Shown here one piece after another: positions 4,747-19,139 of a DNA stretch of 64,000 nt. The notes under the pieces are model-generated. The model saw nothing but the letters and a program-made list of their open reading frames with translations, was not told where the DNA came from and searched no databases. The translations under genes were made by a program, and so were the position numbers. The first letter of the stretch is position 1, and each line of letters opens with the position of its first letter. Origin of the DNA: Gemmatimonadales bacterium (GTDB taxonomy: Bacteria > Gemmatimonadota > Glassbacteria > GWA2-58-10); contig JAJRTS010000001.1 in assembly GCA_024278175.1 (NCBI GenBank), forward strand, positions 1 through 64,000, read 5' to 3'.

Positions 4747-7700
4747 TTACCAGCCGGCCCGCGGGGGGCTGAACGCGCGTAGGCCCGCAATCGGGTCCAG
4801 GCTGAGCGCCTGCCGGCGTTTGCTTTCGGCCTCGGAGTCCCGGCCCAGGCCCTCGAGGGCCAGCGAGAGCTTGAACTGCTTGACGGCCTCGAAATTACGG
4901 CCCGGATCGAAATTCTCGCTATGCCGCTGGCGCACGTGCCTGGAGCTTTCCACCGCGGTCAGCATCTGAGTGTAGACTTCCCTGGCCTCATCGTTCTTAC
5001 CCAGGGCCACCAGCGCCTTGCCGCGGTAGTATTGGAAGGCATTGTCCGCCGGTATCTTGTAAGCGGCCGCTTTCCTGTAATACTTACTGGCCTCGCCTTT
5101 CTTGCCCAGCGCGGCCAGCGCCCTGGCCACCATAAACTCCTTGCGGGCATGCACCACGTTGGGCTGCGGAGCCACTTCCAGGTTGAACGGGTAAGTCAGC
5201 GAGAGCCGGTAATGCTTCAGCGCACTCTCGTAGTCGCCATCGGCATAGAATTTGTCGCCCTTGCCGAGATTACTCTCCACCCAGTACTGGTGCACGTCGT
5301 AGCGGCCTTCCCAGCTATGGAAGTGATGTTTCCGGAGATACCCGAGAGCGTCGTCGTAGCGTCCATCCTGGACATACATCGAGATCAGCCGCTTGAGCAG
5401 ACGGTCGCGGGAATTGAGCGCATCATCGTATTTTTCCAGCAACGCCGTACGCTCCCGGTTGCTTACACCCTTGCTCTGCAGGACCTTGTCCAGTTCCTCC
5501 ACTGCCATCGCCTCCCCGTGGCCGACCGCCACCGCCTGGCGGTAGGCGCTTTCGGCCTTGTCCAGCTCGCCGCCGGCCATGCGGACCTGGCCGATATTGC
5601 GCCAGGCGACCGCGTTGTCCGGGTCACTCTCCACTGCTTTCTCCCAACTTGCCAGCGCCTCGCCGGTCCGGTCACGGCTGCGCAGCAGGTTCCCCAGATA
5701 GTAGCGCGCACGGCCATCGTCGGGGTTCTGCTCCAGCGCCCAGCCCAGCACCGGGAAACTTTCCAGGCGGTTGGGGAATACGTAGGTCGGATCACCTTCG
5801 GCCGCCTGCCGCAGCAGGGCCGCCGCGGCGGTCATATCGCCCATTACCCAGCGATAATACGCAAGGTAGTAATCGACCATCGGCGAAACCTTGACTCCAC
5901 TCTCTTTCAGCACTTGCAGCGTCATGGCGGCGGCCCGGTAGTCGCCGCAGCGGGCGAAACGGATGGCGAGTTCAAGATGATTTTCGCTGTCGAGACGGGT
6001 CAGCCCAAGCAACTCGGCCTTCAGGCTCTCAACCCGAGCGGACTGTTCCCGGCTGTGGGCGACATAGATTTTCTCGCCAAGCGAGAGCAGGTCCAGCGGG
6101 TCCATCTCCTGGGCCTTTTCGGCCACGGCCAGGGCCTCGTCGTGACGGCCCATCCTGTTGAGGATAAGAGCCTTGACCGCCCAGGCCTGCACATTGTCGC
6201 CGTTGCCACTGAGGCTGCGTTCAATATGGTCCAGCGCGCGTTCGTAGCGCCCCTGGGCGGCTGAGAGTTGCGCCAGTTCGAAGTGGGCCGCCGCGTAGTA
6301 AGTCAGGTCGTAGCTGGCGCGGTTGAGGTGTTTTTCCGCCAGATAGAGATCGCCGTCGCGAAGGTGGGCCATGCCCTTGTAATAGCGCGCCTTACCCATG
6401 TCCGGGTAGCGCTTCAGGGCCAGGTCGAAATGCTCGATTGCCTGGCTGTAGAGCCCCTGTTTCAGGTTTATCAGGCCGAGGGCGGTGTTGGCGCGCACAT
6501 CGCCGGGGTCACGACGCAGAGCTTCCTCGTAGTACCCGCGCGCCCTTTCTTTTTCGCGGAACATGTCGTAGTAGTCGCCGGTGATAAACAGCTCATCGAC
6601 ACTCTTCATCTCAGCCGGCTCGTCCGGAGCGAGCTCGGGAGCGGGCAGCGGCGGGTTTGTCGGTCTGGGATGACGGAAAGCGAGCAGCGTGTCGCCGCCG
6701 GAGCTGAGCACTGTCATGCTCAACTCGTAGAGATCGGCCTTGCGGCCCACCCTGGCCTCGCCGACAAACGGGGCCGAGGGATCGGTATCGACATTCTGCC
6801 GGAAAATTTCCTTACCGGCGTAGGCCACTACAACCTGAGCGCCTTTGTTAACGCCGGTGGGACTCCAGCCGAATTTAGCTTTCCTGCCATCGAGTTCCAG
6901 GTTGAGCGCGCCCTCCAGGTTGGCGTAATCCCAGACGCCTATATCGCGCACCGGGAACCAGTAATGACTGTAAATCTTGGTCTCTCCGGGCAGGATCCAG
7001 TGGTAATCGGGCTGGTTGTCGCTGTAGGCGCCGGCCTGGGGTTCAAAGTAGGGCAGGTCGCCGTCGGTCAGTATTTTCTCCCAGATACGACCCGAGGGCG
7101 CGGTGCCCCAGGTCCACAACTTTTTACCACGCACGATATGCGGGTCCGCCACGTGAACCAGACCGCCCTGCTTCTCGGGGCTGTAGCCACCGAAATAGGC
7201 TGCTTCGCTTTCCCAGGCGAAAAAGCTGTTGGCCGGCTCGATATTTTTCCAGTAGCTGACATTCACGCCCTTGCTGATCGGCCACCTGTAAAATGTCTGC
7301 TTACCGTGGCCGGTGACGATTTCGCCGGGAATCACGGCCTGGTATTCGTGTGTTGCGCGCACCGCGGCGGTGGCCCACATCTGGAAAGAGTGGGCATAGG
7401 GTGAGCTGTTATAAAGCCGGACCTTGGTCTCGACCCAGTTGCGACCGGGGTGAACCGTGGTGCCGACAGCCCAGCGCATGCCATATATCCGGTCTATTTC
7501 ACCCGTCCAGGCAGTGCAGGATCCATCGGGGTTTTCCACCAGCCGGTAGTCGGTGTCGCGGAAGCCGCTGGGACGGTGGCCGTGGGGGAAGTTCCACTCC
7601 ACGCCGCCGGAAATCCAGGCGCCGCCCATCCCCACCAGTCCCGGCTTGATCGTGGTCTGGTTGTAAAGAAACTGGTAGCCGTTGGTCTTGTCCTGCGCAC

Positions 7701-7971
7701 CGTGCAGACGCCCGCCGATCTCCGGCAGCACCAGGGCCTTGACCCACTGGTTTTCCACATAAAGCGCCTTGTAGGTCCTGTCGTATTTCTCGTCGCTCAG
7801 CCGCTCGAGCATGGTGTACGGATAGATCTTCTCCCAGTACGGCATCATCTCCGGCTCACCGATCCTGTAAGTGGGCAGGGTGAGCGGCTGCTCGTAAACT
7901 TTCACTTCCGCCCCGGCAACAGTCACGGCGGCGGCCATGAGCAGCGGGACGATCATACGTGTAATTCTCAC
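4747..7971 (-). CDS. Secreted DUF5107 and tetratricopeptide repeat protein
   Basis: This 1074-residue protein starts at a GTG with GGAGG nine bases upstream; an in-frame ATG five codons later is the alternative. A signal peptide ends near AGAEV. Residues of about 25-430 form a DUF5107 domain, a galactose-mutarotase-like beta-sandwich, with WNFPHGHRP and HYWFPVRDIG stretches. From about residue 460 to the end there are many TPR-type repeats, of the A-x-x-x-x-x-A-L-x-x-x-P-x-x form. In this family the two parts commonly occur together; a carbohydrate-binding or scaffold role is suspected but not shown. It lies next to a lyase and a transglutaminase-like protein that are also exported. Convergent with the PfkB kinase gene, it ends at a shared terminator. 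Confidence 0.8.
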   Translation of the reverse strand: MRITRMIVPLLMAAAVTVAGAEVKVYEQPLTLPTYRIGEPEMMPYWEKIYPYTMLERLSDEKYDRTYKALYVENQWVKALVLPEIGGRLHGAQDKTNGYQFLYNQTTIKPGLVGMGGAWISGGVEWNFPHGHRPSGFRDTDYRLVENPDGSCTAWTGEIDRIYGMRWAVGTTVHPGRNWVETKVRLYNSSPYAHSFQMWATAAVRATHEYQAVIPGEIVTGHGKQTFYRWPISKGVNVSYWKNIEPANSFFAWESEAAYFGGYSPEKQGGLVHVADPHIVRGKKLWTWGTAPSGRIWEKILTDGDLPYFEPQAGAYSDNQPDYHWILPGETKIYSHYWFPVRDIGVWDYANLEGALNLELDGRKAKFGWSPTGVNKGAQVVVAYAGKEIFRQNVDTDPSAPFVGEARVGRKADLYELSMTVLSSGGDTLLAFRHPRPTNPPLPAPELAPDEPAEMKSVDELFITGDYYDMFREKERARGYYEEALRRDPGDVRANTALGLINLKQGLYSQAIEHFDLALKRYPDMGKARYYKGMAHLRDGDLYLAEKHLNRASYDLTYYAAAHFELAQLSAAQGRYERALDHIERSLSGNGDNVQAWAVKALILNRMGRHDEALAVAEKAQEMDPLDLLSLGEKIYVAHSREQSARVESLKAELLGLTRLDSENHLELAIRFARCGDYRAAAMTLQVLKESGVKVSPMVDYYLAYYRWVMGDMTAAAALLRQAAEGDPTYVFPNRLESFPVLGWALEQNPDDGRARYYLGNLLRSRDRTGEALASWEKAVESDPDNAVAWRNIGQVRMAGGELDKAESAYRQAVAVGHGEAMAVEELDKVLQSKGVSNRERTALLEKYDDALNSRDRLLKRLISMYVQDGRYDDALGYLRKHHFHSWEGRYDVHQYWVESNLGKGDKFYADGDYESALKHYRLSLTYPFNLEVAPQPNVVHARKEFMVARALAALGKKGEASKYYRKAAAYKIPADNAFQYYRGKALVALGKNDEAREVYTQMLTAVESSRHVRQRHSENFDPGRNFEAVKQFKLSLALEGLGRDSEAESKRRQALSLDPIAGLRAFSPPRAGW

Positions 7972-8146
7972 CTGTCATAACCTCCGGTTAACGATACGGA
8001 AATCAACTGCGGTAACGGGCCTGGAAATTTTTTCCACTGGAAACTAACATAAATCTAATTTGGCGGCCCGCGCCCGGTGTGTCAAACATTTTCGCTTATC
8101 TTCCCTCGATTGCGGCTTCCATTACGATTGCCTTCATCCGCGGATA

Positions 8147-9715
8147 CTATTCTCCCGCCACCTCGATTTCGTATGTAACGGGCGCTTCTCGCACCACCCG
8201 GACATGCTCGCGGTCCCAGCCCTTTTCCCGCCAGCGGTAGGTCACTTTAAGCGAATTCCCCTCCCCGATGGAACCGGCCCGCACGGTAACCCTGTTTTTC
8301 CCCGGCGCCAGCAACGGCAGGGAATACATGTTGAGCTGGCAGATGGCGTCCAGTTTGAGGCTTTGCAACCGGGCCGAGCCGGGGCCGTGCGCGCCGTGAA
8401 GCTTCACTTTGATCCGGAACGAGTAGCGCTCATTCAGCAGCCGGCCGGGGATTTGGAAATCGAACGCGCCCGCCGTCTCTTTTACCCCCAGACAAACCCA
8501 CTGCTCGGCCTGGCCCACATCCATATAGACCGCGGCCCAACCGCCCTCGACCAGCTCCGCCACACCGCTGACCGAACCGCCCACGAACACGTAGGGCAAC
8601 TCAAGGGTGAACACCGCCTCACCGGTGGAGTCCACATTTTCCAGCACCTGCCTGCTCCCGTTCACGGCCAGGCCCAGCACCGAGTCCGCCGCGCCTGCGA
8701 TCCGGCTGTCGCAGAAATCGTCCTCGTACACGAGCCGTCCGTTGGCATAGTAACGGTAGCTGTCCCGGCCGTTGATCGTCTTGCGGTAGGGTTTGATTAT
8801 CGGCCAGTTGAGCTCATCGCGCTGCTCTTTTCCGCCAGCGGGATGATGGGGCGGAAGCAGCGCGGGCGAGGGACTGATCCGGTTCAGCTTGTCGCGATGG
8901 TACTCGTAGCTCAGGTTGTACATCCCCGGCTCGTGGTCCCACATCCTGATCAGCTTGAACCCCGGCCGCAGATTGAACGCCATCGTGTGCGACGAAAGCT
9001 CGTTTACTTCCACCGCCTCGTATTGCGGCAGCGTACCCAGCAGGAACCCCAGGCCGTACTTGCGGTAGCCGTACCACCGGTCCGGCACGGCCAGGGCCGC
9101 TTCCGGGTAGACCTGCTCACCGCCCCAGGGGCAGAACGGCATACTGGCCCGTCCCTGGAGCACCGCCCGGCTCAGGATCGTGCTGTCGGCGATTATCTGG
9201 TCGATCGAGGCGATATCCTGCCTGTCCCTGCCGGTATAGGCGAAACAACCCACCACCGCGTCGATAAAGTGCCACTTGCCATCCCAGTACGCCTCGGCGG
9301 TGCCGTGGCCCGGCACGGTAATCCCGCGGGCATCTTCAGTCAGGCCCGTCTGCTTGAGAAAACTGGCGAACATCCAGTTGCCCTGGGTGCAGAGCGAGTA
9401 GCCGTATACGTTTACCATCCGCACGAAATCGAACATGTGGGACTGGTCGTTGAGCGGAAAAGGGTACTCGTTGCGGTTTGAATAAGGGAACATCGCGCGG
9501 CGGAAAAAGCGATAAAAATTTACCGCCCGTTCGCCCGGGCCCTCGGCATCGCGGCGCATACCGGCCGCGATAGTGGAGGCGTCGAACGTGTTCACGCTGC
9601 GGTCGGTGCTCACCCAGGGGTTGACTATCGGCCCCGAGGCGAAAGCGTCGCCCGCGGCCATGACCAGCACAAACAGAACAATCCCGCGCAGCTTGAAATC
9701 TTTTTTATGGAACAT
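8147..9715 (-). CDS. Secreted transglutaminase-like superfamily protein
   Basis: This is a protein of about 522 residues. The ATG at 9713-9715 is preceded by AGGAG nine bases upstream and yields a proper signal peptide (basic start, hydrophobic core, AFASG). A longer in-frame start at 9811 has none of these. A transglutaminase-type catalytic triad is visible: Cys near residue 108 (YSLCTQGNW), His near 137 (PGHGTAEAYW) and Asp near 151 (WHFIDAVVG). The C-terminal 250 residues look like beta-sandwich modules, possibly carbohydrate-binding. The fold is used by proteases, peptide N-glycanases and cross-linkers, so the substrate is open. It ends in TAG. Its upstream neighbour on the plus strand is a DUF3857/transglutaminase gene, divergently transcribed. 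Confidence 0.7.
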   Translation of the reverse strand: MFHKKDFKLRGIVLFVLVMAAGDAFASGPIVNPWVSTDRSVNTFDASTIAAGMRRDAEGPGERAVNFYRFFRRAMFPYSNRNEYPFPLNDQSHMFDFVRMVNVYGYSLCTQGNWMFASFLKQTGLTEDARGITVPGHGTAEAYWDGKWHFIDAVVGCFAYTGRDRQDIASIDQIIADSTILSRAVLQGRASMPFCPWGGEQVYPEAALAVPDRWYGYRKYGLGFLLGTLPQYEAVEVNELSSHTMAFNLRPGFKLIRMWDHEPGMYNLSYEYHRDKLNRISPSPALLPPHHPAGGKEQRDELNWPIIKPYRKTINGRDSYRYYANGRLVYEDDFCDSRIAGAADSVLGLAVNGSRQVLENVDSTGEAVFTLELPYVFVGGSVSGVAELVEGGWAAVYMDVGQAEQWVCLGVKETAGAFDFQIPGRLLNERYSFRIKVKLHGAHGPGSARLQSLKLDAICQLNMYSLPLLAPGKNRVTVRAGSIGEGNSLKVTYRWREKGWDREHVRVVREAPVTYEIEVAGE

Positions 9716-9811
9716 GTCGTCTGTTTCTCCTGTCCTAATTGGTAATCGAACGCGAATGCATGAAAGCTTATGGTAATAGTTACTCGCCGCCGCCGCCACG
9801 GTCAAGCACAA

Positions 9812-9840
9812 TTGACAAAACTCGCATACCTGCTTAAATA
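9812..9840 (+). promoter_or_regulatory. Sigma70-type promoter for the DUF3857 pair
   Basis: TTGACA at 9812-9817 and TAAATA at 9835-9840 are separated by 17 bases. The start codon at 9893 lies about 45 bases past the predicted transcription start. Confidence 0.75.
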
Positions 9841-9892
9841 CTTAGCAGATACGAAACTCCAGCCCCAGTGACACCCTTGCAGGGAGTAGCCC

Positions 9893-11872
9893 GTGCACAT
9901 CAGAATACCATGCTCCATCCTAGTAACCGTCATTATGCTCTCGGCGGTGGCCGTTGCACCCTCCGGTGCGGCCCAGGCCGGGCCGGAACTGATCGCCAGG
10001 CTGGCCGAAGCCACGGCGGAAAAGTACCCGGACACCAACTCGGTTGTGGTCGAAAACGTCCGTAAGTTCCGCTACAGTCAGGACGGCACCTACATCCACC
10101 GGGACTACGCCCTGATAAAAATCCTGACCGAGACCGGCAAGAAGCGCTGGGGTGAGCAGGGGCACGACTACAGCCGCAAGTACAATACGCTGAAAATCGA
10201 GAAAGCACGGGTAATCAAACCCGATGGCCGGGTGGTGGACGTACCTGAAGAGATGATCAAGGACATCACTCCCCCCGCGCTGGCCCGGATGAATATTTAC
10301 GACTCCGAGGTGCGGATGCTGATGGTCACCTTTCCCAGCCTCGAGGTGGGCGATGCCATCGAATACGAGGTGGTGGACAGTTGTTTCAGCGCGCCGATGG
10401 ACGGTCAGTTCGACTGGATGGACCTGTTGCAGGGTTCCGAGCCGATAGTGCACTACAAGGCGGAAATCACCGGCCCGGCCGCCCTGCCCCTGCACCATGT
10501 GGTCAAGGACGGCGAGGCCGGGTTTACGCTCACCACGGAAAACGGCCTGAACACCTACACGTGGGAAGTGCGCGGCGTACCCCGGATCGTGGCCGAGCCG
10601 GCCATGCCCTCCTACACCAGCTTCGCCCCGCGGCTGCTCGTTTCCACGATTGGCGACTGGCGGCAGGTCAGCAAGTGGTGGTACGAGATGACTTCGCGCT
10701 TCCGTATCGCCGACGACAGCCTGCGCGCGGTGACCCACCGGATTACCGCAGGAATGACAACGGACAAAGAAAAAATCAAGGCGGTCTATCATTTCGTGGC
10801 CCAGAAAATCCGCTACATGGGCCTGGGCACCGGCAAGAAAGCCGGGTTCGAGCCCAAGCCCGCCAGCGAAACCCTGGCCACCCGCTACGGGGTCTGCCGC
10901 GATGTGGCCGTGCTGATGAGCACGATGCTCGACGTTCTGGATATCGAAAGTTACGAGGTGCTCACCCGCGCCGGTGAACTGATCGATGAGGAAATCCCGA
11001 TTATCGCCTTCAACCACGCAATCGTGGCCCTGCCCGACGGCGAGGGGGGCTGGTATTTCAGCGACCCCACCGTGGAGAACAACCCCGACCTGCTGATGGC
11101 CGCGGAGGCGGGCGCCAGCATGCTGGTCTGCACCCCGGCGGGTGAGCCGCTGGTAACGAGCCCCCGCAAGAGCGCCGAGGAAAACATGGGCACGATCTCC
11201 GCCGTCAGCCGCGTGGAGTCCGATGGCCGGCTGGTCAGCGAGGTCACTATCTCCACGGCAGGAATCTACGACCTGGCCTTCCGGGGGTTTGTCAAGCGCT
11301 TCCCGCCCCGGCAACTGGAGAGCATCTGGCAGCGCATCGTGGGCGGAGTGCATCCCGGGGCGCGCCTGCTGGGGTTCAGCTCCAGCGACCCCGAGGACCT
11401 CTACACACCGTTCGGCCTCAAGTTCAGCTACGAGGTGGCCGACTACGCTATTTCCGCGGGCGAATACCTGCTGGTCAAAGCGCCGATTTCCACCAATAAT
11501 TTCGAGCTGATTCTGGGGCAGTTCCTGGCCGCCGCCGGCCTGCCGGAGCGCACCTACCCGTTCAACCTGGGTATGACCCTGGGCAGCACCCAGAGCGAGG
11601 AGCTGACCCTGCCCCCCGGCTACAAGGTCAAGAGTATGCCGGAGGCCGTGTCGATCGACGACGGGGACCTCAGCTACCGGATGGTCTACAGCGCCGACAT
11701 GCCCAGCGAGACCGATCCCTCGCCCAGCGTGCGCTACGCTAAGAAATTCCTGATCGACACGAAGCAGCTCAGCACACAGGAGTACAAGAGCCTCAAGGAA
11801 ATCCTTCGCGCCAGCAGCCGCAGCGGCCGTGGCGAGATTATCCTCGAAGCTGTCAACCGGGGAGGCAAGTGA
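9893..11872 (+). CDS. DUF3857 and transglutaminase domain protein, catalytic triad intact
   Basis: This 659-residue exported protein starts at a GTG with AGGGAG six bases upstream. A signal peptide is followed by a DUF3857 domain (about residues 50-230) and a transglutaminase core. The core keeps all three catalytic residues: Cys near 335 (TRYGVCRDVAVLM), His near 376 (FNHAIVAL) and Asp near 391 (YFSDPTVEN). The rest is a DUF2569/DUF3858-like beta-rich tail. Such proteins are common in the Bacteroidetes/FCB group; their substrates are unknown. Its TGA overlaps the ATG of the next, paralogous gene by one base (TGATG), so the two are translationally coupled and probably work together. Confidence 0.8.
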   Translation: MHIRIPCSILVTVIMLSAVAVAPSGAAQAGPELIARLAEATAEKYPDTNSVVVENVRKFRYSQDGTYIHRDYALIKILTETGKKRWGEQGHDYSRKYNTLKIEKARVIKPDGRVVDVPEEMIKDITPPALARMNIYDSEVRMLMVTFPSLEVGDAIEYEVVDSCFSAPMDGQFDWMDLLQGSEPIVHYKAEITGPAALPLHHVVKDGEAGFTLTTENGLNTYTWEVRGVPRIVAEPAMPSYTSFAPRLLVSTIGDWRQVSKWWYEMTSRFRIADDSLRAVTHRITAGMTTDKEKIKAVYHFVAQKIRYMGLGTGKKAGFEPKPASETLATRYGVCRDVAVLMSTMLDVLDIESYEVLTRAGELIDEEIPIIAFNHAIVALPDGEGGWYFSDPTVENNPDLLMAAEAGASMLVCTPAGEPLVTSPRKSAEENMGTISAVSRVESDGRLVSEVTISTAGIYDLAFRGFVKRFPPRQLESIWQRIVGGVHPGARLLGFSSSDPEDLYTPFGLKFSYEVADYAISAGEYLLVKAPISTNNFELILGQFLAAAGLPERTYPFNLGMTLGSTQSEELTLPPGYKVKSMPEAVSIDDGDLSYRMVYSADMPSETDPSPSVRYAKKFLIDTKQLSTQEYKSLKEILRASSRSGRGEIILEAVNRGGK

Positions 11873-13908
11873 TGACAACCAGGCCCGTCTTGCGTAATTT
11901 CATCCTGGCTTCTCTGGTTTTTTTGCTGTGCTCGTTCAGCGCCCGTCTGTGCGCTGAAATCCGCCTGGACGAGCAGCAGAGCGCCGCCCTGGTGGCCGGG
12001 GCCCCCACACTGGCCGAGTACCCTGCCGCCGGAGCGCTGATTCTCTACCAGGGCAAGCGGCTGAAAGTGCTTCCCGGTGGAACGCACGAGTTGACGGAAC
12101 ATCTGCTGGTCAAGGTCCTGCGTGACCGTGGCCGCGGCTTCGGCGACCAGAAGCGAAATTTCGACTCCGCAACCGACAGCGTGGAAATCCTGCTGGCGCG
12201 CACCTGGCTGCCAGAGGGCGGCAACGTGGCGGTCGAGGACAAGGCGATCAACGTGATTACTCCTCCCGAACTCACCGGCGCTACGGTCTACGCGGATATC
12301 AAGCAGAAAGTGATCTCGTTCGGCGCAATCCAGCCGGGCGCGGTAGTGGAGCTCCTCACCCGTACGATCAGCGCCCCCGACAGCGCGGACAGGACGGACG
12401 GGCAGTTGTACTGGGACATGGAGCTGTTCCGCTCCTCCGAGCCGATCCTTCGCAAACGCTACGAGCTGCTGCTGCCCGCAGGCGCTCCTGAGCCGCTGGT
12501 GGTGCGGCGCAACGGCCTGGACGCGGCGCAGACCGAGCAGGTTACGCTGGACGGCGGCGGCACTACATTTACGCAGTACGGCTGGGAAGCCTCCGGCATG
12601 GAAATGATCCAGCGGATCCCCAATATGCCGCCATCGAGAAGTTACGCGCCCTGGCTGCTGTTCTCCAACGCCCCGAACTGGGAAAACCTGGGCCGCTGGC
12701 TGGCCGAGCGCTTTTACCCCTCGGTGGAAACCGATGGTGAGCTGAAAACCAGAACTGATTCCCTGCTTACAGGCAGCGTCACCCGCGCGGACAGCGTGCG
12801 CGCGCTGGCCCTGTACGTGGCCACCGAGGTGCGCAATATCGCCCTGGCGCTGTCGCTCACCGGCTATGAGCCTACTACCGCCGGCAAGGTGCTCGGCAAC
12901 ATGTACGGCCACTCGCTGGACAAGGCCGTGCTGCTGGTCAGCATGCTGCGCGCCGCGGGAATCGAGGCCTGGCCAGCTTACGGCAGCGGGGACATGCTTG
13001 ACCTGCTGGAGGAGGGCGTACCCGCCCCGGCCCAGTTCGACCGCGTGATGGTCTACGTGCCGGGTGATTTTACCGATTCGACATTCGTCAATCCCCTCTA
13101 TGGCAAAGCAGATCGCCACGGCCTCTGGCTTCACCCCACCGCCCAGTACAACCGCTACGGTTACTACAGCCGCGGCCAGGGCAGCCGGGCGCTGGTGGTG
13201 CAACGCTCCGGCGGCACGCTGCACCGGGTGATGGAGTTCCCGCCGGAGAAAAGCCTCTCGCTGGTGCGCGCCGAATTTGTGCTCGCTGACAACGGAGATA
13301 TGACGGGAGTTTTCAACGCCGCCACGGATGGCCTGTTCGACATCCAGGCGCGCCTGAACCTCAAGGACGACACTCCGCGCGAACGCCAGCAGTATTTCAG
13401 CCGGGCGGCCAACGCGATCAACGAGGGAGCGGTGGTGACTGACGTGGAGCTCTCGGACCTTCGCGACCTGACCACAGCCGCCGGAGTGCGCTTCGAGTTC
13501 GCCGCGCCGGAGCTGGGAATCGTGCAGGGGGAGATGATGATCCTGCATCTGCCCGCTCCCCCGTTCGGCTTTACCGGCTTGCCCTATTTCCCGAACCTGG
13601 AGAGCAGGGAGTACCAGTTCGTGGCCGACGGGCCGTTCACGCTGGTGCGCGAGTACGCTATCGAGCTTCCACCGGGCTGGAAAGTGGCCTACATGCCACT
13701 CCGCGAGACGTTCGACTGCCGCTACGGCCGCTGGCTGATAGAGTGCACCCGCAGCGGAAACACCCTGAACCTTCGCCGCAGCCTCACTGTCGGCGCTCGC
13801 GGAGTGGACACGGATGGCTATGCGGAATTCAGGCGTTTTTTCCTCGGTTTCACCCTGCCGCGCCAGTCGTTGATTCTGCTGGAGCGCGATGATTCCACGG
13901 GAAGCTGA
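11872..13908 (+). CDS. DUF3857/transglutaminase paralogue with degenerate active site
   Basis: This 678-residue exported protein is paralogous to its upstream neighbour. The ATG at 11872 overlaps the preceding stop, with GGAGG six bases upstream; a GTG one codon earlier is possible. The fold is conserved but the triad is not. The position normally held by Cys reads YGHSLDKAVLL (Ser or Leu where family members have DCKDKA). The His motif reads FDRVMVYV with Arg in place of His. The Asp motif reads WLHPTAQYN with His in place of Asp. It is therefore predicted to be a non-catalytic partner or regulator of the active copy. A sigma70 promoter for the following gene starts 50 bases after its stop. 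Confidence 0.8.
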   Translation: MTTRPVLRNFILASLVFLLCSFSARLCAEIRLDEQQSAALVAGAPTLAEYPAAGALILYQGKRLKVLPGGTHELTEHLLVKVLRDRGRGFGDQKRNFDSATDSVEILLARTWLPEGGNVAVEDKAINVITPPELTGATVYADIKQKVISFGAIQPGAVVELLTRTISAPDSADRTDGQLYWDMELFRSSEPILRKRYELLLPAGAPEPLVVRRNGLDAAQTEQVTLDGGGTTFTQYGWEASGMEMIQRIPNMPPSRSYAPWLLFSNAPNWENLGRWLAERFYPSVETDGELKTRTDSLLTGSVTRADSVRALALYVATEVRNIALALSLTGYEPTTAGKVLGNMYGHSLDKAVLLVSMLRAAGIEAWPAYGSGDMLDLLEEGVPAPAQFDRVMVYVPGDFTDSTFVNPLYGKADRHGLWLHPTAQYNRYGYYSRGQGSRALVVQRSGGTLHRVMEFPPEKSLSLVRAEFVLADNGDMTGVFNAATDGLFDIQARLNLKDDTPRERQQYFSRAANAINEGAVVTDVELSDLRDLTTAAGVRFEFAAPELGIVQGEMMILHLPAPPFGFTGLPYFPNLESREYQFVADGPFTLVREYAIELPPGWKVAYMPLRETFDCRYGRWLIECTRSGNTLNLRRSLTVGARGVDTDGYAEFRRFFLGFTLPRQSLILLERDDSTGS

Positions 13909-13957
13909 AACCTTGTGGCGGCCGGTTTTTACAGGGGCGCGGGCCTGGGCTCGGCTA

Positions 13958-13986
13958 TTGTCAAAACGGACCGGGCGGGTTATATT
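13958..13986 (+). promoter_or_regulatory. Sigma70-type promoter for the cyclophilin lipoprotein genes
   Basis: TTGTCA at 13958-13963 and TATATT at 13981-13986 have a 17-base spacer. The predicted start of transcription is about 50 bases before the GTG at 14043. Confidence 0.75.
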
Positions 13987-14042
13987 ATCAACTTGAATAT
14001 TTTTGGTTTTCAACCGGCAATTAACCAGAGGTGGATACCAGG

Positions 14043-14684
14043 GTGCATTACCGGATAATTACCTGCTTTCGCAGTCGTCTGATGCTGTCGGCGATGATGT
14101 TGCTGGCCGCCGCTGTTGTTTCCTGCGACCAGCCCCCCGCGCGAACCGGCATGCAACTGGCCCGGACACGTGATTACGAGCAACAGAAAAGCGAGCGTGA
14201 AGTCTGGATATTCGAAACCAACCAGGGCGAATTCATGATCCTGCCGCTGCCGCAGGCCGCTCCAAAAACGGTCCGTCAGATTAAGGACCTGATCCAGCGC
14301 GGTTTCTACGATGGCCTGGCGTTCCACCATGTCGAGTCTGACAGGATGATCCAGGGCGGTGATATCAACAGCCGCGACGATGACCCGTCCAACGACGGGA
14401 TCGGTGACCCGGGCTTCACTGTCGAGCCGGAATTCAACGCGCCCAACCTGATGGGCAGCGTGGGTCTGGCCCATCCCCCCGGTGAGCCGGACAAGGCCAA
14501 CAGCCAGTTCTATATCCTGCTCGAGGACCGTCCCCAGCTCAACGGTCGTTTCACCGTGTTCGGCGTGGTTGTCGAGGGAATGGACGTGATACGGAAAATC
14601 TCCCGGATCCCTACCGATGACAGCGGACAGCCGTCCGAGCGTATCGAAATCAAGCACGTGTATGTCGATGAGCGCTATGTCTGA
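14043..14684 (+). CDS. Cyclophilin-type peptidyl-prolyl isomerase lipoprotein, catalytic Arg replaced
   Basis: I chose the GTG at 14043 because GAGGTGG lies about eight bases upstream; a GTG at 14031 is in frame but lacks one. A signal sequence ends in a lipobox (VVSC), so the mature protein is probably lipid-anchored. The cyclophilin fold is clear: FYDGLAFHHV, MIQGGDI, NSQFYILL and NGRFTVFG. Cyclophilins catalyse proline isomerisation with an Arg in FHR; here the motif is FHHVES (near residue 95), so the catalytic Arg is His. The protein may act as a binding chaperone rather than a full enzyme. A second cyclophilin with the normal motif follows 91 bases downstream. Confidence 0.8.
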   Translation: MHYRIITCFRSRLMLSAMMLLAAAVVSCDQPPARTGMQLARTRDYEQQKSEREVWIFETNQGEFMILPLPQAAPKTVRQIKDLIQRGFYDGLAFHHVESDRMIQGGDINSRDDDPSNDGIGDPGFTVEPEFNAPNLMGSVGLAHPPGEPDKANSQFYILLEDRPQLNGRFTVFGVVVEGMDVIRKISRIPTDDSGQPSERIEIKHVYVDERYV

Positions 14685-14775
14685 GGCGGGGAGCGGGGGC
14701 GGCAATTTCGCATTAAGAGCCTGGCGATGACTGTCGGCCCGACCATAAAACCGGACATTTAAAAAAGGATAAACG

Positions 14776-15456
14776 ATGAACCGATTTACTGTGCTGTTCG
14801 CCCTGCTCGCAATCCCCGCCGCACTGGTCATTTCCTGCTCAAACGGTAACAGCGCCGAAGAAAAGAAACCGATTGAACCGCCCAAGGCCCAGGTGCGTAA
14901 AAGCCCGGACCCGGCTCCCGGCAGCTCCAGGCTGACCGCCGAGAGCGAGGTGGCCGTTATCCAGACCAAACTCGGCTCGATAGTGATTCGCTTCTTTCCC
15001 CACGCGGCTCCGAATCATGTGAAAAATTTCAAGGCACTGGCCAAGAGCAAGTTTTACGACGGGTGCACTTTCCACAGGGTGATCCCCGGCTTCATGATCC
15101 AGGGCGGCGATCCCAACAGCAAGGACGACAACCTGCAGAACGACGGGATGGGCGGTGGTCCACGCAAACTGATGGCCGAGTTCAGCCAGATCAGGCATGA
15201 GCCCGGGATTGTCTCCGCAGCCCGCAGCGCCGATCCCAACAGCGCCAGCAGCCAGTTTTTCATCGTGGTTAAGGCGGCCCCGAACCTTAACGGCCAGTAC
15301 ACCGTGTTCGGCAAAGTGATCAAGGGAATGGAAGTGGCTGATAAAATCGTGGCCTTGCCGCGCGATGAACGCGACAACCCGGGCAAGGCGGCGCTGATCG
15401 AGAGTATCAGAATAGTCAAGGCCGGCGATGTGCCCGACCTCCAGTTGGACGAGTAA
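14776..15456 (+). CDS. Cyclophilin-type peptidyl-prolyl isomerase lipoprotein
   Basis: This 226-residue exported lipoprotein has a lipobox near VISC, followed by a Pro/Lys-rich linker to about residue 55 and a full cyclophilin domain. All key motifs are present: FHRVIPGFMIQGGD with the catalytic Arg, SASSQFFIVV and NGQYTVFGKV. It should isomerise Xaa-Pro bonds of envelope proteins. It is the active counterpart of the preceding gene and probably shares its transcript. It ends in TAA about 58 bases before the gyrA start; no terminator is visible between them. Confidence 0.88.
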   Translation: MNRFTVLFALLAIPAALVISCSNGNSAEEKKPIEPPKAQVRKSPDPAPGSSRLTAESEVAVIQTKLGSIVIRFFPHAAPNHVKNFKALAKSKFYDGCTFHRVIPGFMIQGGDPNSKDDNLQNDGMGGGPRKLMAEFSQIRHEPGIVSAARSADPNSASSQFFIVVKAAPNLNGQYTVFGKVIKGMEVADKIVALPRDERDNPGKAALIESIRIVKAGDVPDLQLDE

Positions 15457-15514
15457 CACGCTGCCGGACCTGTTTATAGTAAAATAGTTGAAGATTCAGC
15501 ACGCGAAGGAAACC

Positions 15515-17998
15515 ATGGCAATCGAGAACAGAGAAAAAGTAGTGACCCGCTTTATCGAGGATGAGATGAGGGACTCGTTTATCAACTACTCGATGAGCGT
15601 GATCATGAGCCGCGCCCTGCCGGACGTGCGCGACGGCCTCAAGCCGGTGCACCGCCGGATTATGTATTCCATGCACGAGCTGGGACTGGCTCCCAACCGG
15701 CCGTTCAAGAAAAGCGCCCTCGTGGTCGGTGACGTACTGGGTAAATACCATCCTCACGGCGATTCGGCCGTTTACGACGCGATGGTGAGAATGGTCCAGG
15801 ACTTCAGCCTGCGCTATCCGCTGATCCACGGGCAGGGCAATTTCGGCTCCATCGACGGGGATTCGGCGGCGGCCTACCGCTACACCGAGGCCAAGCTGCG
15901 CAACGTATCCGTGGACATGCTGGCGGATATCGAGAAGGGCACTGTCGATTTTGCGCCCAATTTCGACGACCGGCTGGAAGAGCCCGCCGTACTGCCGTCG
16001 AAAATCCCCAACCTGCTGGTCAACGGCTCCAGCGGTATTGCGGTCGGTATGGCCACCAATATCCCGCCCCACAACCTGGGCGAGGTAGTGGATGCCTGCA
16101 TAGCGGTGATCGACAACCCCGAGGTCACGGTCGATGAGTTGATGGAGATCGTGCCGGGACCGGATTTTCCCACCGGCGCTTACATCTACGGCCGCGAGGG
16201 GATCAAGGAAGCCTACCGTACCGGTCGCGGGCGGATCAGGGTGCGTGCCCGCGCCTACGTGGAAAACAAGAAAAACGGCCGCGACTCGATCGTGATCAGC
16301 GAAATCCCGTTTATGGTCAATAAGGGCAGGCTGCTGGAAAACATGGCCGAGCTTGTGCGCCATAAAAAAGTGGAGGGGATCAGCGACATCCGTGACGAGT
16401 CGGACCGCGACGGGATGCGGATCGTGATCGACCTGAAGCGCGACGCTTCCGGCGAGGTGATCCTCAATCATTTTTACACCAAGACGCAGTTGCAGAACAC
16501 GTTCGGCGTGATCAACCTGGCGCTGGTCGACGGGGTCCCGCGGGTGCTGGACCTGAAGGCGATGATCACGGAGTACCTCAAGCATCGCCACAACGTGGTG
16601 GTTCGCCGCACCGAGTTCGAACTTCGCAAGGCCGAGGAGCGGGCGCATATCCTCGAGGGCCTCAAGATCGCGATCGACAACCTGGATGCGGTTATTAAGA
16701 TTATCCGTGAAAGCAAGGACTCCGCCACGGCCCGCGATAACCTGATGAAGGGTTTCTCCCTGAGCGAAGTGTAGGCCCAGGCCATTCTCGACCTTCGCCT
16801 GTCCCGCCTGACCGCACTTGAACGCGAGAAACTGGACGAGGAATACAATGAGCTGCTGAAGACTATCGAGCGGCTCAAAGGCTTGCTCGCCAGCCTTGAA
16901 CTGCGGATGCGGATGATCAAGGAAGAGTTGATCGCAGTCAGGGACAAGTACGCTGACGAGCGCAGGACCGAGATCCTGGACGATGCCGGCGAATTCAATA
17001 TCGAGGACCTGATCGCCGAAGAGGAGATGGTGATCACGATCAGCCACAACGGCTATATCAAGCGGCTGCCCGTAACCACATACCGTCGCCAGGTGCGCGG
17101 CGGCCGCGGCAAGAGCGGCCAGACCACCCGCGAAACGGACTTCCTGGAGCATCTGTTTATCGCCAGTACGCACGACTATATCCTGTTCTTCACCGCGAAG
17201 GGGCAACTCTACTGGCTCAAGGTCTATGAAATCCCTCAGGCCGGGCGCACCGCCCAGGGCAAGGCGATTGTCAACCTGATCGAAATCGAAAAGGAAGATC
17301 AGATCGCCGCCATGCTTCCGGTGCGCAGTTTCAGCGAGAGCCAATTCGTGATGCTCGCCACGCGCAAAGGTCAGGTCAAGAAGACCAGCCTGTCGGCGTT
17401 CAGCCATCCCCGCCGCAACGGGATTATCGCTATCGGCGTGCCGGAGGACGATGTGCTGATCGAGGCAAAGATTACCGATGGCAGCCACGATGTGATCCTG
17501 GCCACCAGCAACGGGCAGGCTATCCGTTTTCCCGAGGACAAGGTTCGCCCGATGGGCCGTACGGCCTACGGCGTGCGCGGAATCAACCTTGAACACGACG
17601 ATTACGTGGTGGGCATGGTTACACTCAATCGCGACTCGACTCTGCTGGTTGTCAGCGAAAAGGGCCTGGGCAAGCGTTCCTCGGTGGAGGAATACCGTGT
17701 TACCAACCGCGGCGGCAAGGGGATTATCACCCTGCGCTCCACACCCAAGACCGGCAAGCTGGTCACGATCAAGGAAGTGGTTGATGACGACGAGATGATC
17801 CTGATCACGCAGCAGGGCCTGATTATCCGGATCGCCCTGAGCGGCGTCAAAGTGATCGGGCGCAACACCAGCGGCGTGAAACTGATCAACCTCAACAAGG
17901 GCGACAAGGTGGTGGACGTGGCCCGGATAGTGCCCGACGAGGATGATGATCAGGAAAACGGGATTCTCGACCAGAACCCGGAGGAAATCGAGCAATAG
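15515..17998 (+). CDS. gyrA: DNA gyrase subunit A, interrupted by an in-frame TAG at codon 420
   Basis: Breakage-reunion subunit of type II topoisomerase, 827 codons. The ATG at 15515 has AAGGA four bases upstream; a TTG nine codons earlier is less likely. The QRDR motif [10 protein letters not shown] and the active-site Tyr in [10 protein letters not shown] are present. The C-terminal beta-pinwheel carries a GyrA-box-like [11 protein letters not shown], which favours GyrA over ParC. After FSLSEV the frame has TAG (16772-16774) and then continues without shift as [16 protein letters not shown]. Other GyrA proteins have Gln at that exact place (for example [10 protein letters not shown] in E. 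coli). One C-to-T change from CAG explains it. The break falls in the coiled coil, so separate fragments should not work. It is either an artefact, a lethal or recent mutation, or a suppressed amber. Confidence 0.9.
16772..16774 (+). other. gyrA: In-frame amber codon inside gyrA
   Basis: TAG in the context GAA GTG TAG GCC CAG replaces the conserved Gln codon between the N-terminal domain and the coiled coil. The frame is open on both sides and homology continues directly. No ribosome binding site or good start follows it: the first start-like codon downstream, a TTG at 16883, lacks one. Confidence 0.95.
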
Positions 17999-18024
17999 CC
18001 TGGCTGACTATAGCATTCAGGATA

Positions 18025-18061
18025 AGCAAAAGCGGGATCGCACAGCGGTCCCACTTTTGCT
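18025..18061. terminator. Rho-independent terminator after gyrA
   Basis: A 13-bp stem with one mismatch (AGCAAAAGCGGGA against TCCCACTTTTGCT) has an 11-base loop and starts 27 bases after the gyrA stop. CTTTTGCTTTG at its end gives a modest T-run. Confidence 0.7.
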
Positions 18062-18126
18062 TTGCGCCCGGTTCTCTTGACAACCGGGCCGGATGGTTGA
18101 TATCTATTTTTAGTTTCATTTTAAAA

Positions 18127-18332
18127 GCGTGCTGAAAAATAGCGAAAGCATGGGTATTCGGTTGTCAATGGCCGTTCCTCGCTGTGTTGGCCGAAAACCG
18201 GCGGGGGCAACGCAACAGCTTGGGAAAATACAACTGACCGAATCAGTAAAAGAAACGGCTTGTCCTGCCCTTGACAACCAACCGAGTAAAATTTTCATCC
18301 CGGGGCGTTGAATGTCTTTATTTCAACGCCCC
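18127..18332 (+). repeat. Dispersed palindromic repeat, copy 2 (about 206 bp)
   Basis: This copy runs from GCGTGCTGAAAAATAG to TTTATTTCAACGCCCC. It carries the inner arms GGTTGTCAATGGCCGTTCC and GAAACGGC...CCCTTGACAACC and the 3' terminal hairpin GGGGCGTTGAA/TTTCAACGCCCC. The stretch GCTTGGGAAAATACAACT is identical to the copy at 53648. It lies between the gyrA terminator and the FabL-like gene, and its 3' hairpin ends about 43 bases before that gene's start, so it forms part of the leader or promoter region. Confidence 0.88.
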
Positions 18333-18374
18333 TCCAATGCAATACGAGCTGGGATTGTGGGAGGAGCCAGGATT

Positions 18375-19139
18375 ATGTATCCGGAACTGAAGGGAAAGAA
18401 CGCTCTCGTCACCGGAGCCACCCGCGGGTTCGGCCGGGAAATCGCGCTGAGGCTGGCGCGCGAGGGCTGTAACGTGATCGTAAATTTCCGCCGCAGCAAA
18501 AGCGAGGCCCTGAACGTGGTGGCTGAAATCGAAAAGATCGGTAACGGAGTCCGGGCCGTGGCCGTGCGCGGGGATGTGGGTAGCGAGAAAAGCCTGCACA
18601 AGCTGTTCGAGCAGATAGAGAACGAGTTCGACAGCCTCCAGATCGTGATCGCCAACGCAGCATTCGGTGTGCCGGGCACCCTGATGGACACCACCTCGCG
18701 CCATTTCGAGGTCACACTGGCCAGCAGCGCCCGCTCGCTGATGCACCTGGCCCAGCACGCGGTGCCGATGATGAAGGGGGACTGGGGCCGGATCGTGAGT
18801 ATCACCAGCGAGGGCGGCCAGAAAGTGCTGCCGGGCTACGGCGTAATCGGCCCGGCCAAGGCCGCGCTGGAGTCGATCACCCGCTACCTGGCCGTGGAGC
18901 TGGCCCCCAGGGGCGTGGTGGTCAACGGCGTGATGGCCGGTCCATGCTTTACCCGCAGCCTCAGCGCAATTCCCGGAGCAGAAGAATTACTGGAGAATGC
19001 CGCCTGCCGCGCCCCGATGCAGCGCCTGATCGATGGGGAAGATGTGGCCAAAACGGTGACTTTTCTCTGCTCGGACGAGGCCCGGATGATCTGCGGCCAG
19101 TTCATCTTTGTCGACGGGGGCTGCAGTATTGCCAAGTAG
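18375..19139 (+). CDS. fabL: FabL-like enoyl-[ACP] reductase (SDR family)
   Basis: This 254-residue short-chain dehydrogenase probably reduces enoyl-ACP in fatty acid synthesis with NAD(P)H. The ATG at 18375 has GGAGG nine bases upstream. A longer frame starting inside the upstream repeat is rejected. The cofactor motif is TGATRGFGREIA, with NFRRSKSEA after beta-2 suggesting NADPH. The active site reads YGVIGPAK, a Tyr-x6-Lys spacing typical of enoyl reductases (FabI, FabL, FabV-like) rather than Tyr-x3-Lys of most SDRs. The following ALE-x-ITRYLAVEL-x-P and the C-terminal MICGQ...VDGG match FabL of Bacillus. The substrate remains inferred. It ends in TAG. Confidence 0.68.
   Translation: MYPELKGKNALVTGATRGFGREIALRLAREGCNVIVNFRRSKSEALNVVAEIEKIGNGVRAVAVRGDVGSEKSLHKLFEQIENEFDSLQIVIANAAFGVPGTLMDTTSRHFEVTLASSARSLMHLAQHAVPMMKGDWGRIVSITSEGGQKVLPGYGVIGPAKAALESITRYLAVELAPRGVVVNGVMAGPCFTRSLSAIPGAEELLENAACRAPMQRLIDGEDVAKTVTFLCSDEARMICGQFIFVDGGCSIAK

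Follow-up and report, generated by a model that had tools for sequence, protein, structure and literature searches.

One intact and one lost active site in tandem DUF3857–transglutaminase-like genes: a candidate enzyme–pseudoenzyme pair in a Gemmatimonadales bacterium

Two adjacent genes of a Gemmatimonadales bacterium (phylum Gemmatimonadota) encode paralogous proteins, A and B, each with a DUF3857 and a transglutaminase-like domain; A keeps an intact Cys-His-Asp triad and B has lost all three residues. Both lie on the forward strand within positions 1 to 64,000 of contig JAJRTS010000001.1 (assembly GCA_024278175.1), the stretch of 64,000 nucleotides analyzed here and called the window below. 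Every tandem DUF3857 locus that could be read at the cysteine position has one copy with the Cys and one without, in either gene order. We consider it fairly probable that A and B make up a periplasmic heteromer to which B belongs as the pseudoenzyme subunit, with contact, activity, and substrate all proposed from the genes.

Results

The gene pair and its active sites

Gene A (9893–11872) encodes 659 amino acids and gene B (11872–13908) 678 from its ATG, or 679 from an alternative GTG start at 11869. The preliminary description had placed a tandem DUF3857 pair at this locus; the pair is real, and the interval it gave, 11872–13908, is that of the second gene only. DUF3857 (PF12969, gathering score 24.6 bits) is matched at 104.7 bits in A (residues 64–231, 10082–10585) and at 73.4 bits in B (12079–12594), and Transglut_core (PF01841, gathering cut-off 23) at 39.6 bits in A (residues 279–392, 10727–11068) and at 25.4 bits in B. 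At the C terminus of B, DUF3858 (PF12970) stays below its threshold (22.7 vs. 27 bits). The two proteins align with 26% identity over 587 columns (E 1e-51), and, judged by eye, both likely begin with a Sec signal peptide.

In the alignments, the nucleophile position of A is Cys335 (YGVC(335)RD, codon 10895–10897), followed by His375 (FNH(375)A, 11015–11017) and Asp391 (FSD(391)PT, 11063–11065), as would be expected of a cysteine enzyme; this triad is Cys-His-Asp in four of the four orthologues of the window's family. The corresponding positions of B are Ser348 (YGHS(348)LD, 12913–12915), Arg391 (FDR(391)V, 13042–13044), and His421 (WLH(421)PT, 13132–13134), so that the "Ser/Leu" given earlier for the cysteine position resolves to Ser. 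In the four family orthologues of B, the cysteine site is S, G, E, or Q (Cys is absent from all of them, and the Ser is not conserved), the histidine site is always R, and the aspartate site is H, H, M, or V. The aspartate column depends on the alignment: it is His (WLHP) with 161 frames and Asn (FVNP, in a 14-residue insert) with eight sequences, and neither placement gives an Asp. An intact triad elsewhere in B, which would have overturned the earlier claim, was found in none of the alignments made, and the window's B has no Cys within 10 residues of the lost site. Among the six genomes of the family, A and B occur together in four (that of the window, G001, G002, and G004); the two less complete ones (G003 and G005) have neither.

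Where the genes meet (11861–11874), a GGAGG (11861–11865) precedes a TGATG in which the stop codon of A (TGA, 11870–11872) and the ATG of B share one base. This overlap suggests translational coupling of A and B. It does not imply equal synthesis of the two proteins, as had been argued from it. The two genes overlap in 29 of 58 tandem pairs, by exactly four bases in 18 (with the first possible start codon used).

Fold of B and selection on it

Modeled with AlphaFold2 on the basis of six aligned proteins, B reaches a mean predicted local distance difference test score (pLDDT) of 82.5 and a predicted template modeling score (pTM) of 0.82; S348 opens a helix, R391 opens a strand, and H421 stands just after a strand. 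Its best PDB match by Foldseek is 3KD4 (E 7.5e-35, template modeling score [TM] 0.83 by target length). The fold around the lost site thus looks intact in the model, in line with what had been read from the letters. For A, the model is less confident (pLDDT 74.3, pTM 0.63), and its best match is again 3KD4. Further down, A matches M1 aminopeptidases over about 235 columns (E ~1e-5, TM by query 0.17–0.18), a hint at peptide handling or peptide substrates. Matches of both models to oligosaccharyltransferase subunits were set aside (TM by query 0.14–0.17, root-mean-square deviation >20).

B is under purifying selection and is not decaying. Between the window and its nearest relative, G001, the ratio of nonsynonymous to synonymous rates (dN/dS, NG86 method) amounts to 0.24 in A and to 0.19 in B; in more distant comparisons, in which dS is high, it is 0.31–0.44 for A and 0.32–0.51 for B. 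The frames of B are open at full length in G001, G002, and G004.

A survey of tandem pairs

Of 395 genomes searched in the window's phylum, 76 gave a DUF3857 match; in a second phylum, that of G395 (the genome behind locus L034), 87 of 132 did. All places listed for the window's phylum were read except one (G030:C44), together with part of those among the matches listed for G395's phylum; of 19 plasmid records matched, six were opened. Forty loci were picked solely for a spacing of about 2 kb between two matches, at a point when no active site had yet been seen. Another 17 pairs were added later, 15 of them from places earlier listed as lone, and in these 15 the hidden neighbor obeyed the one-cysteine rule wherever it could be read. 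Two pairs (L118 and L156) have a second copy cut off before the site and were left out as unreadable; L162–L164 were left out as repeats of L107, L126, and L121. The broken middle frame of L132 was also left out, and the split frames of L186–L188 were counted as single loci, not as pairs.

Of the 65 tandem loci examined, 63 are readable at the cysteine position, and exactly one copy has the Cys in all 63. The active copy comes first in 35 pairs and the dead copy in 28. The survey of relatives thus bears out the proposal that active/inactive pairs are conserved: one active and one dead paralogue are encoded together and co-inherited, "dead" being judged by residues. A naive calculation from the frequency of Cys in lone copies makes 63 out of 63 by chance essentially impossible, a figure that serves as an illustration only, the related loci being non-independent. 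Among the first 58 pairs (56 readable), the Cys copy has the full Cys-His-Asp set in 55; in L047 it is Cys-His-Glu. In arrangements other than the window's, the dead copy frequently keeps its other two triad residues: among 57 dead copies (two without letters there), 22 have the His and 35 the Asp, the Asp column being less certain. In eleven dead copies, a Cys lies no more than 10 residues from the site, but not at it. In another active-then-dead type (L154, L155, L160, L198, and L201), the dead copies have a Cys eight residues past the lost site. In 23 of 23 loci whose active copy is of the GVC[KR]D type, a second DUF3857 frame adjoins it; this was not used as evidence, since it follows largely by construction (16 were picked as tandem and five were found with B as the query).

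Since no triad is found elsewhere in B and the pairs are widely conserved, the enzyme-plus-pseudoenzyme part of the earlier proposal is well supported by sequence. The other part, that the two form a complex, is inferred.

Lone copies and long proteins

In other families of the window's phylum, 78 lone DUF3857 loci were read, three of them (L186–L188) in broken frames; 77 have the Cys, and the exception, L050, has Ser. Several of these stretches end at a contig end, so that a partner could lie off the contig. The four plasmid-borne lone copies (L056–L059) all have the Cys, L059 with Asn at the Asp site. In G395's phylum, seven long proteins (L145–L151) all have it, and so do six of nine further lone copies. 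In two of the three without it (L189 and L202), the contig runs out on the side where the partner would be; the third, L195, is considered in the Discussion.

Other phyla and the history of the pairs

In L034, the active copy has YGVCRD, FNHA, and YADP and the dead copy YGDWRD and FNAL with the Asp kept; the dead copy scores 24.4 bits for DUF3858, again below the threshold. An active–dead tandem occurs also in Persicobacter JZB09 (L060). In a plasmid record of Parabacteroides distasonis (NZ_OY725779.1), an intact copy stops 13 bases before the gene of 3KD4 itself, the dead copy of this pair. The protein of that gene, a DUF3858 protein, matches the 3KD4 chain throughout over residues 23–527 and has Pro, Thr, and Ser at the three triad sites.

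In a tree of 107 rows, the clade of active copies of the window's type is mirrored by a clade of their dead partners, and each includes members from the window's family, G395's phylum, and P. distasonis. The active clade has good support (99) and the dead clade is not well supported (83); long branches may be what groups the P. distasonis dead copy with others, and that join is flagged for this reason. The tree needs five changes, three of them forced by its starred branches. A tree of 46 rows without P. distasonis separates the window's type of dead copy (76/66) from the dead copies of the three other arrangements, which gives two changes. Constraining every dead copy to a single clade comes at a cost of 19.9 log units (approximately unbiased test, p-AU 0.043). 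The catalytic Cys was probably lost at least twice, which falls short of certainty because the test rejects a single origin of all dead copies by a narrow margin only.

Distances among active copies are mirrored by those among their dead partners in the two main types (r = 0.94 for 19 pairs and 0.93 for 25 pairs), with none of 2000 permutations as high in either. In the window's type, divergence is faster among the dead copies (mean 0.71 vs. 0.61 for the active copies) and is larger than that of the active partners in each of 171 comparisons, themselves not independent of one another. The second type shows no such excess (0.70 vs. 0.71).

Neighboring genes

M1 peptidases lie near L034 and L162, and an oligopeptide transporter (OPT) and a C1-type peptidase beside L164. 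The M1 match recurs at full length only between L034 and L162 (L151 has a fragment), and neither OPT nor C1 recurs. Most flanks measure about 1 kb, which makes this absence a weak one; context says little about function and was not used as evidence.

In the window, the pair belongs to a cluster at 4747–19139 made of a DUF5107-TPR gene, a divergent protein, A, B, two cyclophilins, gyrA, and a short-chain dehydrogenase/reductase gene. Its matches lie close together in G001, G002, and G004, in G004 without a frame matching the divergent protein. That protein (8147–9811, reverse strand) is apparently exported and has no Pfam match. Its motifs with Cys, His, and Asp (YSLCTQGN, GHGTAEAYW, and WHFIDA) follow one another as in a transglutaminase-like triad and are shared with G001 and G002; on these motifs it is possibly a third transglutaminase-fold protein of the locus. 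The two tandem cyclophilins after B (14031–14684 and 14776–15456) look by eye like lipoproteins. In four of the four family genomes with the cluster, the FHR of the second cyclophilin is replaced by FHH or FHY in the first; PDB relatives have FHR too. We take the Arg of FHR to be the catalytic Arg, Arg55 of CypA, and by these residues the cyclophilins may be a second active/probably inactive pair in the same cluster. The gyrA gene (15488–17998) is broken into two frames (428 + 371 amino acids) and is a single long frame in G001, G002, and G004; an error of assembly or sequencing is the probable cause of the split.

A third DUF3857 protein of the same genome, about 744 amino acids long and without the Cys, is encoded at L032:6929–9163 (G000:C76), beside genes for aldehyde dehydrogenase and ribonucleotide reductase.

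Discussion

A would be an exported transglutaminase-like cysteine enzyme of the periplasm, most likely a peptidase or an amidase, and B an anciently derived, catalytically dead paralogue retained as its partner. Probably translationally coupled, the two would most likely assemble into a heteromer in which A catalyzes and B binds the substrate, closes the active site, or regulates. More tentatively, and at slightly less than even odds, we propose that tandem DUF3857–transglutaminase-like genes may in general encode unrecognized, widespread, obligate heteromeric cysteine peptidases in which one copy has turned pseudoenzyme, with at least two independent origins and in both gene orders, and that 3KD4 may be such a dead subunit with an overlooked enzyme partner.

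Several observations weigh against a heteromer. Many of the surveyed pairs come from related genomes and are not independent; because some are from close relatives (L112 and L122, for example), 63 pairs are not 63 independent events. Linkage and a common species history would also produce co-inheritance and mirrored distances. Outside its family, the window's neighbors do not recur in the flanks examined, which for most loci measure about 1 kb. Neither L042, L044, L046, L052, L057, and L058 (by Pfam) nor L145–L151 (by profile search) proved to be fusions of active and dead copies: each of these long proteins has one DUF3857 core, with the Cys (some add TPR or DUF2569). Cys-less copies also occur alone. 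L195 has no partner frame of at least 200 amino acids in the roughly 1.5 kb remaining, L050 has no visible tandem partner, and all six genomes of the family (L032 and L165–L169) have the unpaired, Cys-less protein of about 744 amino acids, with no DUF3857 neighbor in the stretch examined (that of L169 being cut by the contig end).

From the last of these it follows that dead copies can work without a tandem partner, and B could be a neofunctionalized, non-catalytic exported protein (for binding or adhesion) that is co-transcribed with A and never touches it. Its former active site does vary freely while the fold is kept, as this would predict. We regard it as unlikely, if the most serious of the alternatives, since one active and one dead copy in every readable pair, in both orders and with a probable repeated origin, exceed what co-transcription needs. 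A contact of another kind is envisaged if B is an inhibitor or keeper that masks or occupies A until a signal comes, rather than a positive subunit. There is general precedent for dead paralogues that regulate the active one by direct binding (PMC5201418), and coupled translation would guarantee the keeper's presence; no direct evidence speaks for it, and gene order does not discriminate, with the dead copy encoded first in 28 of the 63 pairs. We hold a keeper to be improbable.

Two further readings of B have little left in their favor. That it is still an enzyme, by another nucleophile or a migrated site, draws on three pairs of another arrangement (L116, L120, and L140) in which the second copy has Ser at the Cys position and keeps His and Asp; these could be serine-based enzymes. 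The window's B, however, has Arg for the His, His for the Asp, and no Cys close by, and its Ser is replaced by Gly, Glu, and Gln in the other three family orthologues, which makes activity of its own very improbable. The excess divergence of dead over active copies of the window's type, counted over comparisons that are not independent, is what a decaying duplicate would also give. Decay is the least probable of all and effectively refuted by purifying selection (as in the low dN/dS of B between the window and G001), by full-length frames in three relatives, and by long retention, with dead copies of the window's type in several phyla. B as a non-catalytic subunit acting with A is thus the reading that we retain.

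Active/dead enzyme pairs are known in metallopeptidases. TldD and TldE are an active subunit and an inactive paralogue that show activity only together (passages of PMC5810440), and in the mitochondrial processing peptidase (MPP, M16B), with homologous active and inactive subunits, the inactive alpha-MPP is essential (passages of PMC11266112). The role proposed for B parallels that of TldE for TldD and of alpha-MPP for beta-MPP. Both systems differ from A and B in fold (TldD/TldE is an unrelated metalloprotease and MPP a zinc peptidase of unrelated fold), and their complexes are demonstrated, that of A and B being a proposal. Lone DUF3857–transglutaminase proteins of the window's phylum have the same domains as A and B, but no dead neighbor in the stretch examined. 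Among the open-licence papers listed for these subjects, we found no active/dead pair of the transglutaminase-like fold in print.

The closest relative of known structure is 3KD4, the "putative protease" BDI_1141 of P. distasonis (DUF3857-DUF3858) and the one solved DUF3857 structure found by our sequence searches. Like B, it is encoded directly downstream of an intact DUF3857–transglutaminase-like gene and lacks the triad; unlike B, it has only 527 amino acids and has a clear DUF3858 where that of B is sub-threshold, and the two share 16% identity in the structural alignment. In the open-licence literature, we found no paper on the function of 3KD4 and no mention of DUF3858; one relevant paper mentions 3KD4, as a profile match (PMC4866520), and one mentions DUF3857, as a gene adjoining lolA (PMC6341742).

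The pattern suggests that this "putative protease" is the non-catalytic partner of the adjacent enzyme, and assays on the 3KD4 protein alone would therefore be expected to fail. More generally, the occurrence of one copy of each kind in tandem is a large natural data set on why a duplicated enzyme gives up one of its active sites.

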